A stretch of DNA of 64,000 nt from Selenomonas ruminantium subsp. ruminantium ATCC 12561. Its GTDB lineage: Bacteria > Bacillota > Negativicutes > Selenomonadales > Selenomonadaceae. The notes beneath the pieces were generated by a model that saw nothing but the letters and a program-made list of their open reading frames with translations, had not been told where the DNA came from and did no database searches. A program made the position numbers and the translations under genes. The DNA is taken from NCBI RefSeq assembly GCF_000424065.1, contig NZ_AUJE01000004.1:1-64000 (forward strand), in the 5' to 3' direction. Within the stretch, counting starts at the first letter, position 1, and the number at the start of each line of letters is the position of its first letter. Shown piece after piece: positions 19,204 through 56,838 of the stretch.

Positions 19204-19380
19204 CAGGGCGGCGGGCGTATTGTGCCGAAGCGTTTGCCTCTTAGCGTTAAGAAATTATTTTTGCCGCCTGTGAAAATGCCTACTGTTTGAGCGCAGCGAG
19301 TTTAGGCATTTTCATAGGCATCAGGCAAAAATAATTTTAGCTAAGCGGCAAAGCGCAGGAACAATACGACCGCCGTCCTG
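19204..19380 (+). repeat. Family A palindromic element, copy A1
   Basis: A near-perfect 177-nt palindrome. Helices: 19204-19223 with 19361-19380 (18 of 20), CTTAGC 19240-19245 with 19340-19345, 19254-19265 with 19324-19335 (12 of 12), 19271-19282 with 19303-19314 (12 of 12). Apical loop around 19283-19302 contains TTTGAGCGCAGCGAGTTT. Internal loops GTTAAGAAA and TTTTA are shared with copies A3 and A4. It fills the gap between hyaD and hypC. Confidence 0.85.
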
Positions 19381-19392
19381 TGCCACCACGCA

Positions 19393-19983
19393 TTATCTTA
19401 TTGCTGAGAAATCCTCTGCAACTTTATTGTAATCCATATCGTCAACATGCTCACGTTTGCGCGGCTCAATCCCCCAGTTTTTGAGTTCCTTGAGCGCCTG
19501 CTCCACCATCTGCGGCAGCAGTTTCATCATACCATCCGACAACTCAACGCCGGCCTCCACATCATAGGGCTGCGCGCCAATGACCACCACATCGGGAATC
19601 TTATGCCCCGTAACGGTTAAGAGCCCCAGCACGTCCTGTATGCCGACCTCATGAGCCGATAATTTATCCTGAAAATGCTCCATCACATCATCATTATGAA
19701 AACGGAATGTCGTGCCCGGCTCCGCCCCGCCATTGATGGAATCAATGACCAAGAGTTTCTCTGTACCCGTAACATACTGCGTGAGTTCAATGCCCAGCGT
19801 ACCGCCATCCACAATCTGCACGGAATCAGGAAATTCATAATGCTTGTCGAGGTATTCCGCCACCCGCACGCCAAAACCTTCGTCGCGCAGAATGACATTG
19901 CCGATGCCCAAAATCGTCACTTCGTTTTTGTAAAGCACATTATCCAGACTGGACTTCCCGCCAGCCGCAAATACATCAGCCAT
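19393..19983 (-). CDS. hyaD: [NiFe]-hydrogenase maturation endopeptidase (HyaD/HybD type)
   Basis: 196 residues. ILGIGNVILRDEGFG near residue 25, with the nickel-sensing Glu, VIDSINGG near 80 and SAHEVGIQDVLGL near 108 are the conserved metal-site blocks of this protease family. It removes the C-terminal tail of the large subunit after nickel insertion; the large subunit here has a 24-residue tail beyond the last His. It lies 2 bp after hypB. The C-terminal extension past about residue 165 is charged and not typical. Confidence 0.93.
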   Translation of the reverse strand: MADVFAAGGKSSLDNVLYKNEVTILGIGNVILRDEGFGVRVAEYLDKHYEFPDSVQIVDGGTLGIELTQYVTGTEKLLVIDSINGGAEPGTTFRFHNDDVMEHFQDKLSAHEVGIQDVLGLLTVTGHKIPDVVVIGAQPYDVEAGVELSDGMMKLLPQMVEQALKELKNWGIEPRKREHVDDMDYNKVAEDFSAIR

Positions 19984-34776: not shown

Positions 34777-34856
34777 GCGCGGTGACTGGTGATGCCTTTC
34801 CGCAGCTTTTGACAAGCTTGTCTATGGCGGAGGAAAGACATTACCTGTCGCCGCGC
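34777..34856 (+). repeat. Family B palindrome, copy B1
   Basis: Outer stem GCGCGGTGAC (34777-34786) with 34847-34856 (one G-U), inner stem CTTTCC/GGAAAG, apex GCAGCTTTTGACAAGCTTGTCT with self-complementary GACAAGCTTGTC. It shares the apex with B2 and B3 while the outer stem differs. Confidence 0.8.
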
Positions 34857-34906: not shown

Positions 34907-34985
34907 GCCCGGCTGTCGGTGATGTTTTTCTGCAGCGTTTGACAAGCCTGTCTAAGCGAAAGAAAAATATTACCGACAGCCGGGC
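34907..34985 (+). repeat. Family B palindrome, copy B2
   Basis: Perfect 14-bp outer stem 34907-34920 with 34972-34985, inner TTTTTCT/AGAAAAA, apex GTTTGACAAGCCTGTCT. It lies 50 nt from B1 in the same orientation, between the charged-protein gene and the AEC transporter. Confidence 0.85.
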
Positions 34986-43782: not shown

Positions 43783-45624
43783 TTATTCTTCCGGCTTAAA
43801 CAGCGTAAAGGTAAGTCCAAAAGCTATACCGAAGCCGATTAAGTTTACAAGCACATATTCGAGCAGATGATCGAGGTAGAGAAGCGTACCCGGCAGAACC
43901 GTGATACCCATGCCCGTACCAGCCAAATGCAGGAAGCTGGCCACGCCGCCAGCGCAGGCACCACCAACGAGTGCATAGAGGAACGGTTTCATGAAGCGCA
44001 GGTTAATACCGAAGATAGCCGGTTCCGTGATCCCTAAGAATGCAGGCACAGCGGAGGAAATGTAGAGAGCGCGTTTCTTCGGGTCCTGAGTCTTCAGCGC
44101 TACAGCCACAGCTGCACCGCCCTGTGCTACGATAGCACCGGTGATGATGGCATTGAAGGGGTCAACGCCCGTAGTAGCCAGAAGCTGTACTTCCAGAGCG
44201 TTAAACACATGATGTACACCAAATACTACGATAACCTGCTGCAGACCACCGACGATGAAACCACCGATACCCATAGGCATCTGCAGGAATGCGGAAACCG
44301 CACCGAAAATCGTCGTTTCCAGAGAATGCATGATGGGGCCAATGATGAGGATACCCAGAATCATGGAGATGAACAAGGTAACAAACGGCGTAACAATCAG
44401 GTCAATGATATCGGGAACTACCGTCTTGAGGGCTTTCTGCAGTTTAGCAGCAAAGATACCGAGAACGAGTGCCGGCAAAACAGAACCCTGATAACCGACG
44501 ATACCAATGGTCATACCAAAGATTTCCATTGGAATGGGCTTCACATCGCCACCAGCAACAGCCCAGGCATTCGGCAGCTGCGGGCCAACGAGCATCAGAC
44601 CGAGAACCAAACCGATAACCGGCGTGCCGCCGAAGCGTTTCATCGTCGACCAGCAAACGAGTGCCGGCAGGAAGATGAAGGCCGTATCCGTGAGAATCTG
44701 GCTCAGCAGCAGCACATTATCGCTGAACTGCACGCCCAGGCTCTGAGCCGCACCGCGCAGGCCCATGAACAAACCTGTTGCCACCAGTACGGGGATAATG
44801 GGTACGAATACGTCACCCAGCGTACGGGAAATCTTCTGCAGCGGCGTCATCTGTGCATAAGCTTCTTCCTTATTGCTGACACCGGAGAAATTCGTGCCCT
44901 TGACGAATTCATCAAAGACCTTATCTACAAAGCCCGTGCCCAGGATAATCTGATACTGGGCAGCCGCAAAGAACTGGCCTTTTACGCCGTCAATGTTTTC
45001 AATGGCTTTTTCGTCGATTTTGGACTTATCGTTAATGATGAGGCGCAGGCGCGTAGCGCAGTGTTCTGCATTGCGCACATTGTCCATGCCGCCAACATAT
45101 TTTTCAATGAGCTTGGCTACGCGAACTTCCTTCGGAAGGTCAGCGTATTCGTCATCAGCCGTTGCCTTTTCTGCTTTTGCTTCAGCAGCAGCGGAAACAA
45201 CTTCCTTATCGCCCAGAGCGATAGTGATTTTGTCAAACTCTGTGGAATTGGTTACAACCATAGGCGTAGTAATGTCATAACCAGCAGCCTTGATTGCCTC
45301 GCCATCGAATTCCAAAAGCAGCTGACCTTTCTTTACCTTAGCGCCCTGTTCCACATGAGCCTTGAAATGCTCACCGTTCAGTTTCACAGTATCCAGGCCA
45401 ACATGAATCAGCAGGTCTTCACCATTCTCGCCATGAATGCCGATCGCGTGTTTCGTTTCAAAAAACACCGTCACTTCACCGTCAACGGGGGAATAAACCT
45501 TACCGTCCGGATTCTTCACTGCTGCACCAAAGCCCATTGCCCCGCTGGCAAAAGCCTGGTCATTCACCTGGGACAGTTCCACCAGTTCGCCGTTAAGCGG
45601 GCTGTCCAAACGAATTTCCTTCAT
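43783..45624 (-). CDS. scrA: Sucrose-type PTS permease, EIIA-EIIB-EIIC in one chain
   Basis: 613 residues. Residues 1-145 are a glucose-type EIIA with H59 and H74 (LLIHVGLDTV); a linker rich in Ala/Lys/Glu follows; residues 162-245 are EIIB with phospho-Cys C189 in NAEHCATRLR; 260-613 are EIIC with about ten helices. Placing EIIA first is unusual because most fused proteins read B-C-A. Pairing with ScrB supports sucrose as substrate; trehalose or another beta-fructoside PTS is a lesser option. RBS GGAGG before ATG 45624; palindromic operator upstream. Confidence 0.9.
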   Translation of the reverse strand: MKEIRLDSPLNGELVELSQVNDQAFASGAMGFGAAVKNPDGKVYSPVDGEVTVFFETKHAIGIHGENGEDLLIHVGLDTVKLNGEHFKAHVEQGAKVKKGQLLLEFDGEAIKAAGYDITTPMVVTNSTEFDKITIALGDKEVVSAAAEAKAEKATADDEYADLPKEVRVAKLIEKYVGGMDNVRNAEHCATRLRLIINDKSKIDEKAIENIDGVKGQFFAAAQYQIILGTGFVDKVFDEFVKGTNFSGVSNKEEAYAQMTPLQKISRTLGDVFVPIIPVLVATGLFMGLRGAAQSLGVQFSDNVLLLSQILTDTAFIFLPALVCWSTMKRFGGTPVIGLVLGLMLVGPQLPNAWAVAGGDVKPIPMEIFGMTIGIVGYQGSVLPALVLGIFAAKLQKALKTVVPDIIDLIVTPFVTLFISMILGILIIGPIMHSLETTIFGAVSAFLQMPMGIGGFIVGGLQQVIVVFGVHHVFNALEVQLLATTGVDPFNAIITGAIVAQGGAAVAVALKTQDPKKRALYISSAVPAFLGITEPAIFGINLRFMKPFLYALVGGACAGGVASFLHLAGTGMGITVLPGTLLYLDHLLEYVLVNLIGFGIAFGLTFTLFKPEE

Positions 45625-45805: not shown

Positions 45806-46005
45806 AGCCGGAACGGGGGCAAAAGGCACGACTGCGCTAAGCCGCCGGGCTAAAACGGATTTTTATCTCTTATGTCACTGGAAAAGTCAAAACTCGCTGC
45901 GCTCAAACAGTAGACTTTTCCAACGACATTCAGCGGTAGATAAAAATCCGTTTCCTAACGCCCGGCGGCATACGCTTCGCTGTGCCTTTTGCCCCCGTTC
46001 CGGCT
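45806..46005 (-). repeat. Family A palindrome, copy A3
   Basis: 200 nt, apex on the minus strand. Helices: 45806-45829 with 45982-46005 (24 of 24), 45841-45850 with 45960-45969 (10 of 10), 45856-45868 with 45938-45950 (13 of 13), 45880-45888 with 45913-45921 (9 of 9). Minus-strand loops GCGAAGCGTAT, GTTAGGAAA/TTTTA and apical TTTGAGCGCAGCGAGTTT match A1 and A4. Confidence 0.9.
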
Positions 46006-46074: not shown

Positions 46075-46279
46075 CTGGCGAGGCGGCTGGGGTGGTATTC
46101 AGGCGACGCGTTTGACTGCTGGCGTTAAGAAAAGCATTTTTGCCCACATACGAAAAAACTCAAAGCATCTTTGTCTGAACGCAGTGAGTTTAGATGCTTT
46201 GAGTTTTATAAAAGGCAAAAATGATTTTTAGCCAGCAGTCTAAGCAGAGCATGAATACCGCCCCAGCCGCCCCGCCAGT
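46075..46279 (+). repeat. Family A palindrome, copy A4
   Basis: About 205 nt, apex on the plus strand, 69 nt from A3 in opposite orientation. Helices: 46076-46101 with 46252-46277 (24 of 26), 46115-46123 with 46231-46239 (9 of 9), AGCATTTTTGCC region with GGCAAAAATGAT, 46155-46170 with 46192-46207 (16 of 16). Loops GACGCGTTTG, GTTAAGAAA/TTTTTA, apex TCTGAACGCAGTGAGTTT. Confidence 0.88.
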
Positions 46280-46309
46280 TTCGAACAATCCTCGAACCAG
46301 CAGCAATAA

Positions 46310-47638
46310 TCACTGCATAAGCAAATCGCGGAATTTGGTGTATTCTTTCTGGAAGAACAGCTGCACGCTGTCCACAGGGCCATTACGGTGCTTGGCCACG
46401 ATGATTTCGGTGATATTCTTGTTCTCCGTGTCCTTATCGTAATAATCCTCACGATAAAGGAACATAACGATATCTGCATCCTGCTCCAGTGACCCGGATT
46501 CGCGCAGGTCGGAGAGCATCGGCTTTTTGATCTGACGGCTTTCCACGGAGCGGGAGAGCTGTGAGAGCGCAATAACCGGCACATCAAGTTCACGCGCCAA
46601 GGCTTTGAGTGAGCGGGAAATCTCGGAGATTTCCTGCTGACGGTTGTCGCTGTTCTTGCTGGCCCGTCCCTGCATGAGCTGCAGATAGTCGATGATAATG
46701 AGGTCAAGACCATGTTCGGCCTTCAAGCGCCGCGCTTTAGAGCGCAGTTCCATAACCGTGATACCGGCCGTATCGTCAATGTAGATGGGAGCCCGGCTCA
46801 TGCGGTCCGCCACGCCCACCAGCTTGTTCCATTCCATTTCGTCCAGCTGGCCTGTACGCAGCCGTGAGGCATCAATACCGCCTTCGGAGCAGAGCATACG
46901 CTGCATCAGCTGTTCCTTGCTCATTTCCAGCGAGAAGAATGCCACATTACCGCCATGCAGGCCGACATAACTGGCGATATTCAGCGTGAACGCCGTTTTA
47001 CCCATGGACGGACGCGCCGCCACGAGGATAAGGTCAGATTTCTGCAAGCCTGCCGTGAGTTTGTCCAAATCCTTGAACCCCGAACTGATGCCCGTAAGGC
47101 CGCCCTTGGACTCATAGAGCACATTGATGCGTTCAAAGGTACGCATGACGATATTCTTCATGGGTTCAAAGGCACCGCCGCCCTGACGGCTGGCCACGGC
47201 CAGAATCTTCTTCTCTGCCTCGTCCATGATGTCTTCTACTTCGTCGCTATCCTCATAAGCCTTGCCTGCAATTTCCGTGGCTACATTGATAAGATTGCGC
47301 AGTTCTGCCTTTTCCTTGACGATTTTCGCATGATAGCTGACATTGGCAGCCGTGCCCACGATATTAGCCAGCTGGGTGATAAAGCCTAGCCCGCCCACCT
47401 TGTCGAGCATATCGGTTTTCCGCAATTCCTCAGTCAAGGTTACGAGGTCCACGGCTTCATCATTATTCTGCAGGCGCACCATAGCCTCATAGATAATACG
47501 GTGCGTTTCCCGATAGAAATCCTCCGGCTGCAGGATTTCCTGCACCTCTATGATGGCCTCTTTTTTGATGAGCATAGCCCCTAAAACAGCCTGTTCAGCT
47601 TCAATATTCTGCGGGGGCACCCGTTCTGGTAATGCCAT
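46310..47638 (-). CDS. dnaB: Replicative DNA helicase DnaB
   Basis: 442 residues. N-terminal helical domain (PPQNIEAEQAVLGAML) and C-terminal RecA-like hexameric helicase with Walker A AARPSMGKTAF near 207, Walker B LDLIIIDYLQLM near 312 and the arginine-finger region SDLRESGSLEQDADIV. Normal length with no intein. It unwinds the replication fork. Last gene of yybS-gdpP-rplI-lonC-dnaB, 5 bp after lonC. Confidence 0.97.
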   Translation of the reverse strand: MALPERVPPQNIEAEQAVLGAMLIKKEAIIEVQEILQPEDFYRETHRIIYEAMVRLQNNDEAVDLVTLTEELRKTDMLDKVGGLGFITQLANIVGTAANVSYHAKIVKEKAELRNLINVATEIAGKAYEDSDEVEDIMDEAEKKILAVASRQGGGAFEPMKNIVMRTFERINVLYESKGGLTGISSGFKDLDKLTAGLQKSDLILVAARPSMGKTAFTLNIASYVGLHGGNVAFFSLEMSKEQLMQRMLCSEGGIDASRLRTGQLDEMEWNKLVGVADRMSRAPIYIDDTAGITVMELRSKARRLKAEHGLDLIIIDYLQLMQGRASKNSDNRQQEISEISRSLKALARELDVPVIALSQLSRSVESRQIKKPMLSDLRESGSLEQDADIVMFLYREDYYDKDTENKNITEIIVAKHRNGPVDSVQLFFQKEYTKFRDLLMQ

Positions 47639-56745: not shown

Positions 56746-56838
56746 ATAAGCCCGCGTGAACTGGCCGTGTTTTTTCGCAGCGTTTGACAAGCCTGTCTCA
56801 GCGAAGAAAAAATACTGCCAGTTCACGCGGACGCCTTA
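56746..56838 (+). repeat. Family B palindrome, copy B3
   Basis: Perfect 14-bp stem 56752-56765 with 56817-56830, inner TTTTTTCGC/GCGAAGAAAAAA, apex GTTTGACAAGCCTGTCT. Its outermost ATAAG/CTTAT arms extend it. It lies within the azlC-azlD unit, 20 nt after azlC and 36 nt before azlD. Confidence 0.85.

Follow-up and report, generated by a model that had tools for sequence, protein, structure and literature searches.

Positions 45806 to 46005 of a 64,000-nt stretch of the Selenomonas ruminantium subsp. ruminantium ATCC 12561 genome (the window) hold a palindromic element, A3, situated between a second element, A4, and the promoter side of a PTS gene (43783–45624). A4 and a third element, A1, adjoin genes by the stop ends of the latter; A3 is the sole window copy with no gene end on its expected side. 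Throughout, 'folded strand' denotes the plus strand for A1 and A4 and the minus strand for A3, i.e. the orientation of our covariance model R1, and 'gene sense' denotes its opposite; for most copies, the neighbouring gene runs in gene sense and its stop lies immediately ahead of the element.

45806–46005, minus strand: A3, full element (200 nt), read on its better-folding strand
45806–45829, either strand: A3 outer arm, left on the plus strand, 24 nt; 24 of 24 pairs with 45982–46005
45982–46005, either strand: A3 outer arm, right on the plus strand, 24 nt; partner of 45806–45829
45890–45910, minus strand: A3 apical loop CTGTTTGAGCGCAGCGAGTTT, a sequence recurring across phyla
46075–46279, plus strand: A4, full element; 3′ end 31 nt from the dnaB stop end
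46155–46170, either strand: A4 apical stem, 5′ arm AAAACTCAAAGCATCT; 16 of 16 pairs with 46192–46207
46171–46191, plus strand: A4 apical loop TTGTCTGAACGCAGTGAGTTT; A...T variant of the G...C closing pair of A3
46192–46207, either strand: A4 apical stem, 3′ arm AGATGCTTTGAGTTTT; 16 of 16 pairs with 46155–46170
46280–46312, minus strand: dnaB stop codon and variable leader before A4, in dnaB sense TGATTATTGCTGCTGGTTCGAGGATTGTTCGAA; GTTCG(T/A)GG-like motifs
46310–47638, minus strand: dnaB, adjoining A4 by its stop end
19204–19380, plus strand: A1, full element; 3′ end 13 nt from the stop end of the HycI gene
19283–19303, plus strand: A1 apical loop CTGTTTGAGCGCAGCGAGTTT, identical to that of A3
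19393–19983, minus strand: hydrogenase maturation protease gene (HycI), adjoining A1

Direct reading and folding of the sequence identified A1, A3 and A4 as real copies with the architecture that a first-pass annotation had claimed for them, including the full self-complementarity of the A3 outer arms and the A4 apical arms. Folded as single-stranded DNA, they reached z-scores of –14.7 (A3), –13.7 (A4) and –12.1 (A1), and for each of them none of 200 dinucleotide shuffles folded as well. On the folded strand, an outer helix of free sequence is followed by a first internal loop with AGCGAAGCGT-like facing TTAGCGNAG-like sequence, a middle helix (~10 pairs), a second internal loop with GCGTTAAGAAA facing TTTTAGC, an inner helix rich in A/T, an apical helix and a tip close to CTACTGTTTGAGCGCAGCGAGTTTTG. 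The median element length is 204 nt. Across the 22 full copies of this genome, the helices vary. Invariant columns are found at GCGT and the later AGC, which frame the first internal loop, as well as over most of GTTAAGAAA and a large part of the tip. This comparison shows that conserved unpaired motifs (GCGT against AGC, GCGTTAAGAAA against TTTTAGC, and the tip CTGTYTGAGCGNAGCGAGTTT) separate helices of free sequence. Within the tip, G..C in GAGCGNAGCGAG gives way to A..T in GAACGNAGTGAG as a pair, which a cGNAg mini-hairpin would demand. As DNA, d(GCGNAGC) forms a mini-hairpin of exceptional stability, and GCGAAGC is used in that sense in the literature. By eye, the helix foot carried no fixed tetranucleotide among the flanks listed. 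The window also contains a second repeat family (34793–34844, 34923–34974 and 56768–56819; 52 nt, 67–87% identity), with a long self-overlapping palindrome at 34777–34856 and no match to R1.

Family size, placement at gene ends and the shared tip

Combining the covariance model with DNA similarity, we found 22 full and three partial copies in the 3.39-Mb genome. The first-pass annotation had allowed that a genome-wide search might return its three copies only; it returned 25. The 22 full copies were first found by DNA similarity and served to build R1, so that their match to it is by construction; of all 25, only C1:169198 was new with the model, the others being known beforehand from DNA similarity or its flanks. 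The partial copies (C32, C33 and C1:169198), as well as a fusion at GGCGGCT in genome G006, look like hairpin deletions; by eye, C32 and C33 are truncated at the 5′ side and retain the tip hairpin with its T-run. R1 matched 31 of 60 relatives and 21 of the 22 genomes of the genus (own included), with match numbers per genome exceeding copy numbers as they include weak reverse-strand matches on the same palindromes. Genome G010 has 34 distinct copies if the equal-scoring matches at 2181 and 2817247 are taken as one (assumed contig-end overlap). In G018, G019 and G009, a sister subfamily (L125, L126 and L128, respectively) has a tip near CTACCGTCCAAGCGAAGCGCGTTTT rather than CTACTGTTTGAGCGCAGCGAGTTTT and is placed after a separate terminator-like hairpin.

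No Rfam family reached its gathering score at the elements, be it in the window, where the first-pass annotation had recognised no known repeat, riboswitch or terminator in them, or in 16 loop-bearing loci (14 outside Selenomonas), where other matches lay elsewhere. As judged by titles and abstracts, the literature searched held no recognisable description of the family, which is no proof of absence, and matches to the loop sequence in the records returned were confined to human or rat studies. Stem-loop families of 40 genomes are catalogued in PMC2267715. The family is real, large and, within the scope of these searches, seemingly undescribed; its genus-wide extent, gene-end placement and cross-phylum tip had been missed by the first-pass annotation.

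Placement was assessed on 133 copies, i.e. 136 model matches in 95 sources from eight genomes minus a reverse-strand duplicate, one match without a recognisable loop and one without the apical part. Considering ORFs of ≥100 aa and a window from –40 to 80 nt, a stop lay on the expected side only in 85 cases, on both sides in 21, on the wrong side only in two and on neither in 25, A3 being one of the copies without a nearby gene end. A sense open frame of ≥100 codons ended within 200 nt of 114 of the 133 copies, at a median distance of 22 nt. That the copies sit at gene 3′ ends in a fixed orientation is well supported by these counts. The frequent minus–plus pairs mostly represent two convergent genes with a copy each, which led us to reject a composite (paired) unit. 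A facing pair ~2.63 kb apart recurs in six genomes (G000:C17:16479+/19263–; G010:C1:888327+/891110–; also G005:C37, G011:C13, G008:C6 and G016:C113), both members being flank-linked in five of them.

The leader between stop and element is hypervariable among species whose DnaB is 97–99% identical to that of our strain, and contains the motif GTTCG(T/A/C)GG on the gene side of 35 of the 133 copies, as opposed to one on the other side. Leaders (e.g. L110–L119) contain repeated TTCG-type units, like footprints. Seven further genomes of the genus carry an A4 orthologue after dnaB, and inspection by eye revealed no terminator-like hairpin between the dnaB stop and the element in any of these eight genomes. 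In genomes that lack this element at dnaB, a terminator-like hairpin mostly follows the stop directly (G013, G003, G015, G001, G002, G012, G018, G019, G009, G014 and G007, by eye); G004 has neither the element nor an evident terminator. In G003 and G013, dnaB has a plain terminator whose stem matches 13 of the 14 bases of the A4 sequence AACTCAAAGCATCT. For this reason, we considered that a dnaB terminator may have been captured as the A4 tip, but the reverse, an element remnant, explains the G003 loop better. Other long-hairpin-like sequences lie after the dnaB terminator at L115 (G013), L120 (G003), L123 (G001) and L124 (G002), e.g. ..GGGGTTCACGGGGGAGTGCTTTTTCTGTTTCCGCTAAACG.. in G013, with TTGCAGTTTGTCGTTTAGTTCG-like sequence ahead of them.

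A search with the tip pattern CTGTYTGARCGNAGYGAGTTT matched at least 119 stretches, and those listed include Bacteroides, Flavobacterium, Elizabethkingia, Ralstonia, Variovorax, Lachnospiraceae, Peptococcaceae and Nitrospirales. The pattern is patchy, occurring in nine of 398 sampled genomes of the own phylum (two of this genus) with up to 36 matches per genome; a reversed-pattern control hit none of the 398. Among 103 distinct sites outside Selenomonas, 87 had a flanking stem of at least five pairs (4.0% with shuffled partners), and the adjoining 7-mers at these stem-bearing sites were 87 different ones. The second motif is less frequent at these sites: GTTAARA-like sequence was present on the 5′ side of 28 of the 103 sites (five on the wrong side) and TTAG-like sequence on the 3′ side of 35 (six on the wrong side). 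R1 matched 17 of 18 tested loci at E ≤ 0.01, the best one outside Selenomonas reaching 59 bits in a Marinilabiliaceae record; as the 18 were picked for likeness from the at least 119 and all bear the loop, these E values are conditional. The gene-end bias is weaker outside, with a sense stop within 250 nt of 46 of 104 non-ORF sites compared with 27 for a stop on the other side, and 31 of 135 sites lie inside ORFs. Many short-form copies occur in a set of Peptococcaceae records (L273, L283, L297) and in G262 (36 matches; L409, L415, L418), several of them only a few tens of bases short of a contig end, as though the assembly had broken at repeats.

Arm complementarity, strand preference and mobility

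The first-pass annotation had taken changed yet complementary helices as a mark of selection on a folded strand or of arm-to-arm copying. Covariation is indeed present, as 40 of 52 consensus pairs showed double changes in the 22 copies (RNAalifold counts, not R-scape), and its meaning in this family is not the one that R-scape would assign to it. We aligned the arms of each copy to one another, scoring all mismatches equally and calling a mismatch isolated when three matches flanked it on either side. Of 11,741 aligned arm cells, 10,075 were Watson–Crick and most others fell into internal loops. Isolated mismatches on the folded strand comprised 93 G–T, 55 A–C and 67 other (74, 41 and 55 unique contexts, respectively), so that G–T amounted to ~0.9% of Watson–Crick cells, near the other mismatch types. 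Counted by unique contexts, G–T was 1.8-fold in excess on the antisense (folded) strand (74 vs. 41, p = 0.003). A control with 39 tRNAs, other phyla included, yielded 421 Watson–Crick, 46 G–U, no A–C and one other pair; the two counts are not strictly alike, since the tRNA filter (≥6/7 and ≥4/5 pairs, G–U allowed) favours few mismatches and all stem pairs were counted for tRNAs, as opposed to isolated mismatches for the elements. In RNA selected for pairing, G–U would be expected well above A–C, and the element arms do not display this.

Sorting copies by flank similarity gave 34 groups, two of which also hold neighbouring copies of one genome. The closest pair per group had 2,073 unchanged base pairs, 120 single changes (43 G–T, 31 A–C, 46 other) and 85 double changes (44 of transversion and 41 of transition type), the latter number being inflated by the swapping of whole tip hairpins between copies, a process distinct from arm copying. 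Such a swap is seen at dnaB, where G016 and G020 have AACTGGAAGTGTCT on both sides and G000 has AACTCAAAGCATCT. Unpaired positions of the same 34 pairs showed 89 transitions and 69 transversions. Changes in both arms numbered 116 in register, compared with 30–48 when the partner was slid by one to three positions. Restricting the count to the 23 pairs of >90% identity left 15 of the 85 doubles (eight transversion, seven transition type) and singles of 21 G–T, 20 A–C and 20 other (sums made by hand). Near-blindness to G–U together with transversion-type doubles points to arm-to-arm copying at the DNA level rather than classical RNA selection; judging by the mismatch, double-change and register counts, DNA-level arm copying appears well supported, and of the two first-pass options it is the one favoured by the data. 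Unrestricted arm copying would erase asymmetric internal loops, whose persistence argues for selection on the loops. PMC8794818 describes a model in which template switching maintains hairpins.

The folded, i.e. antisense, strand was the more stable one in 108 of the 133 copies with DNA parameters and in 104 with RNA parameters, and had 2.03 cGNAg pentamers per element as against 0.33 in gene sense. The G–T excess falls on the strand that also folds better, and part of the energy difference may be owed to it. These biases lend indirect support to a strand-specific DNA structure, i.e. folded single-stranded DNA or a cruciform. Of the three natures proposed in the first pass, a structured RNA thus fares poorly, given rare wobble and an antisense G–T excess, and folded single-stranded DNA or a cruciform gains from the strand preference; movement as single-stranded DNA is less well borne out, the copies being old and mostly common to close species.

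In gene sense, at least five T within the eight nucleotides after the tip hairpin were found in 63 of 133 copies (16 on the other strand) and at least six in 38 (five on the other strand), leaving 70 copies with this T-run missing. A TTYTTAACG-like tract is present in gene sense in 124 copies and a weaker one, TTTTAG/TTTCAG, in the opposite direction in 114; both belong to the conserved internal-loop motif and do not constitute independent evidence. A terminator scan (loops of ≤8 nt) called one small stem in A3 (45963–45982) and none at A1 or A4, and the two sites in the A3 stretch equal chance level (2.2 in shuffles). A terminator role is plausible from gene-sense anatomy.

PF01797 (Y1 transposase) had no match in G005, G009, G010 (a single contig), G011, G017 and G018, which carry 16 to 47 R1 matches each; G007 has no elements and one Y1 match, and other genomes of the genus have Y1, with 10 matches in the own genome. 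Absence from several element-rich genomes speaks against Y1 as the partner. An integron integrase was likewise rejected, with none of 60 genomes over the curated TIGR02249 cut-off (weak cross-matches in 57 of 60 and in 14 of 14 controls). PF04986 (Y2) was matched in none of 41 genomes and likewise none of 14 controls, a search lacking a positive control. All-against-all BLASTP over 119 loci (two from Selenomonas) revealed only common families as shared neighbours, the largest in eight loci. An insertion sequence bounded by hairpins was considered for two loci with copies 1.6 kb apart and dismissed, as housekeeping-type genes and no transposase lie between them. A plasmid or phage origin was rejected on searches in which the 495-nt A3+A4 stretch had no plasmid match and a 50-nt hairpin query had no phage match and partial, weak plasmid matches (E 0.3 to 3; 14 records, none covering 80%), with the loop pattern in two stretches of the viral collection.

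Recent transposition was not seen, either. Across ~180 kb common to G010 and G011 (five of nine sites aligned), eight of nine copies occupy the same place and orientation, and at the ninth site each species retains a different member of an apparent ancestral convergent pair. Nearest paralogues had median identities of 0.74–0.79 (highest 0.90), compared with a median of 0.90 (range 0.59–0.99) for 29 G010–G011 orthologue pairs. A3 is absent from G016 and G008, where its flanks are joined at GGCA/GTACGCATT; at this gap, the sole site examined, a target duplication measures at most 2 nt (AC). In G010, 33 of the 34 copies fall outside 1.20–2.53 Mb, i.e. in the origin-side 53% of the chromosome (GC skew of sampled stretches: origin at 0.50–0.62 Mb, terminus at 1.82–1.92 Mb). 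A simulation that asked for the largest arc holding no more than one of 27 loci, close pairs being merged, gives p = 5e-5 for this clustering, in this genome only and for an arc chosen after seeing the data. Any replication-strand bias of the G010 copies follows the strand of the genes. The best explanation of these observations is a mostly vertically inherited, chromosomal family, of which A3 is one copy.

Interpretation and relation to known elements

With belief and doubt about evenly balanced, we propose a family of gene-end hairpins whose arms are homogenised by template switching, which close transcription units and whose antisense strand is read by a protein. Template switching at replication (quasi-palindrome correction) would homogenise the arms, near-perfect pairing being a self-maintaining by-product, and selection would act on no more than the unpaired motifs, the orientation and the existence of a hairpin as such. 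At gene ends, the hairpin would close the transcription unit as a terminator or insulator, using the gene-sense succession of A-tract, stem and U-tract-like TTYTTAACG. The antisense strand would fold into a DNA structure with cGNAg mini-hairpins as caps, to be read by some protein now or in the past, at the time of the family's dispersal; the family may once have spread, perhaps as folded single-stranded DNA. Besides the copies with no T-run, the chance-level scan, the lack of both element and evident terminator in G004 and the 25 copies with no gene end close by, two further points count against the terminator job: the RNA of a terminator would need the strand opposite to that with the G–T excess, and a conserved 21-nt loop is unnecessary for termination.

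A less likely possibility is a non-autonomous element whose mobile form is, or was, a folded single strand of DNA, with a recombinase or transposase reading the unpaired antisense motifs; in its working it would resemble a REP or the bottom strand of an integron attC site, though it is neither of the two. Copies dispersed behind unrelated genes, stable loops on the antisense strand, the leader motif confined almost entirely to the gene side, the absence of A3 from the same place in two relatives and a tip common to several phyla would all fit. Against it speak the divergence of even the nearest paralogues, the agreement of G010 and G011 at eight sites and a ninth that fits loss from an ancestral pair, the lack of Y1 in several element-rich genomes and of IntI over cut-off in 60, a silent Y2 search (itself without a positive control), neighbour families that do not go beyond housekeeping ones across 119 loci, and a target duplication of 2 nt at most at the A3 gap. 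Wider in scope, and unlikely in our estimation, is an undescribed kind of gene-end DNA element that spans phyla and is read as a folded single strand, attC-like and without an integron. In this reading, a candidate enzyme of wide yet patchy distribution would recognise the fixed tip CTGTYTGAGCGNAGCGAGTTT, a cGNAg mini-hairpin, and the fixed internal loops, and the sites would lie behind ordinary housekeeping genes. The stems of such elements would be free owing to the re-copying of either arm from its partner.

It seems distinctly improbable that the elements are DNA cruciforms or sites of protein binding that serve, at the ends of genes, in managing supercoils or replication, the role ascribed to BIMEs; the frequent location between convergent genes (pairs in –,+ order) and the origin-side clustering of 33 of 34 copies in G010 would suit this, but the clustering comes from one genome and could reflect the age of the genes there. 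Least probable of all is a structured RNA, be it an sRNA or a 3′ UTR, in which selection preserves the stems by way of G–U intermediates. Double changes at 40 of 52 consensus pairs, strong RNA folding energies and a one-strand G–T excess would suit such an RNA, but G–T lies near A–C and the other mismatches, compared with 46 G–U and no A–C in 468 tRNA pairs, more than half of the double changes (44 of 85) are of transversion type, and Rfam has no match at the elements.

Returning to the gene-end hairpins with homogenised arms, several known systems invite comparison. Like REPs, BIMEs and REPINs, they are extragenic palindromic repeats in many copies, often beside genes; the Selenomonas element differs in its ~200 nt, several conserved asymmetric internal loops and free stems. 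REPs measure 20–40 bp with a GTAG or CGTC tag, the former going with Y1 transposases and the latter said to lack a dedicated one (PMC3733652); neither this length and tag nor, in several element-rich genomes, a Y1 of the RAYT/TnpA type was found here. The bcr1–bcr18 elements of the Bacillus cereus group measure 100–400 bp, lie for the most part on the chromosome and, in the case of bcr1, number tens of copies; they are associated with TTTAT motifs, and the first of them is said to be restricted to one species group (PMC6542083). They resemble our family in size, chromosomal location and copy number, whereas the Selenomonas tip is common to several phyla. The integron attC sites lie behind genes as well. 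In attC, it is the folded bottom strand that works, and structure is kept with little sequence conservation (PMC2727003). In our family, too, the strand antisense to the gene folds better in most copies and the helices are free in sequence, but it has a conserved 21-nt tip, no cassette arrays around its copies and no IntI over cut-off. Intrinsic terminators likewise sit just behind stops with an A-tract, stem and U-tract-like tail in gene sense, but the Selenomonas element has ~200 nt, a conserved large loop and a T-run in 63 of 133 copies only. A further comparison is with quasi-palindromes, whose arms are complementary by copying one from the other (PMC8794818, PMC7202029) and which, in these sources, were inferred for short RNA-gene stems or studied in E. 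coli; here we deal with a genome-wide repeat family with long stems and conserved asymmetric loops that escape correction. Since defining features of REP, attC and RNA families were tested and not found, we file the family among chromosomal palindromic repeats.

If this interpretation is right, the family would constitute a natural many-copy system in which compensatory changes originate in the copying of DNA and not in selection on RNA. R-scape and similar covariation tests would probably call it a structured RNA, making it both a warning and a control set, and it would render the template-switch model testable in a bacterium at defined sites. It also raises the question of what reads a 21-nt tip that Selenomonas shares unchanged with some Bacteroidota, Clostridia and Betaproteobacteria despite different stems.
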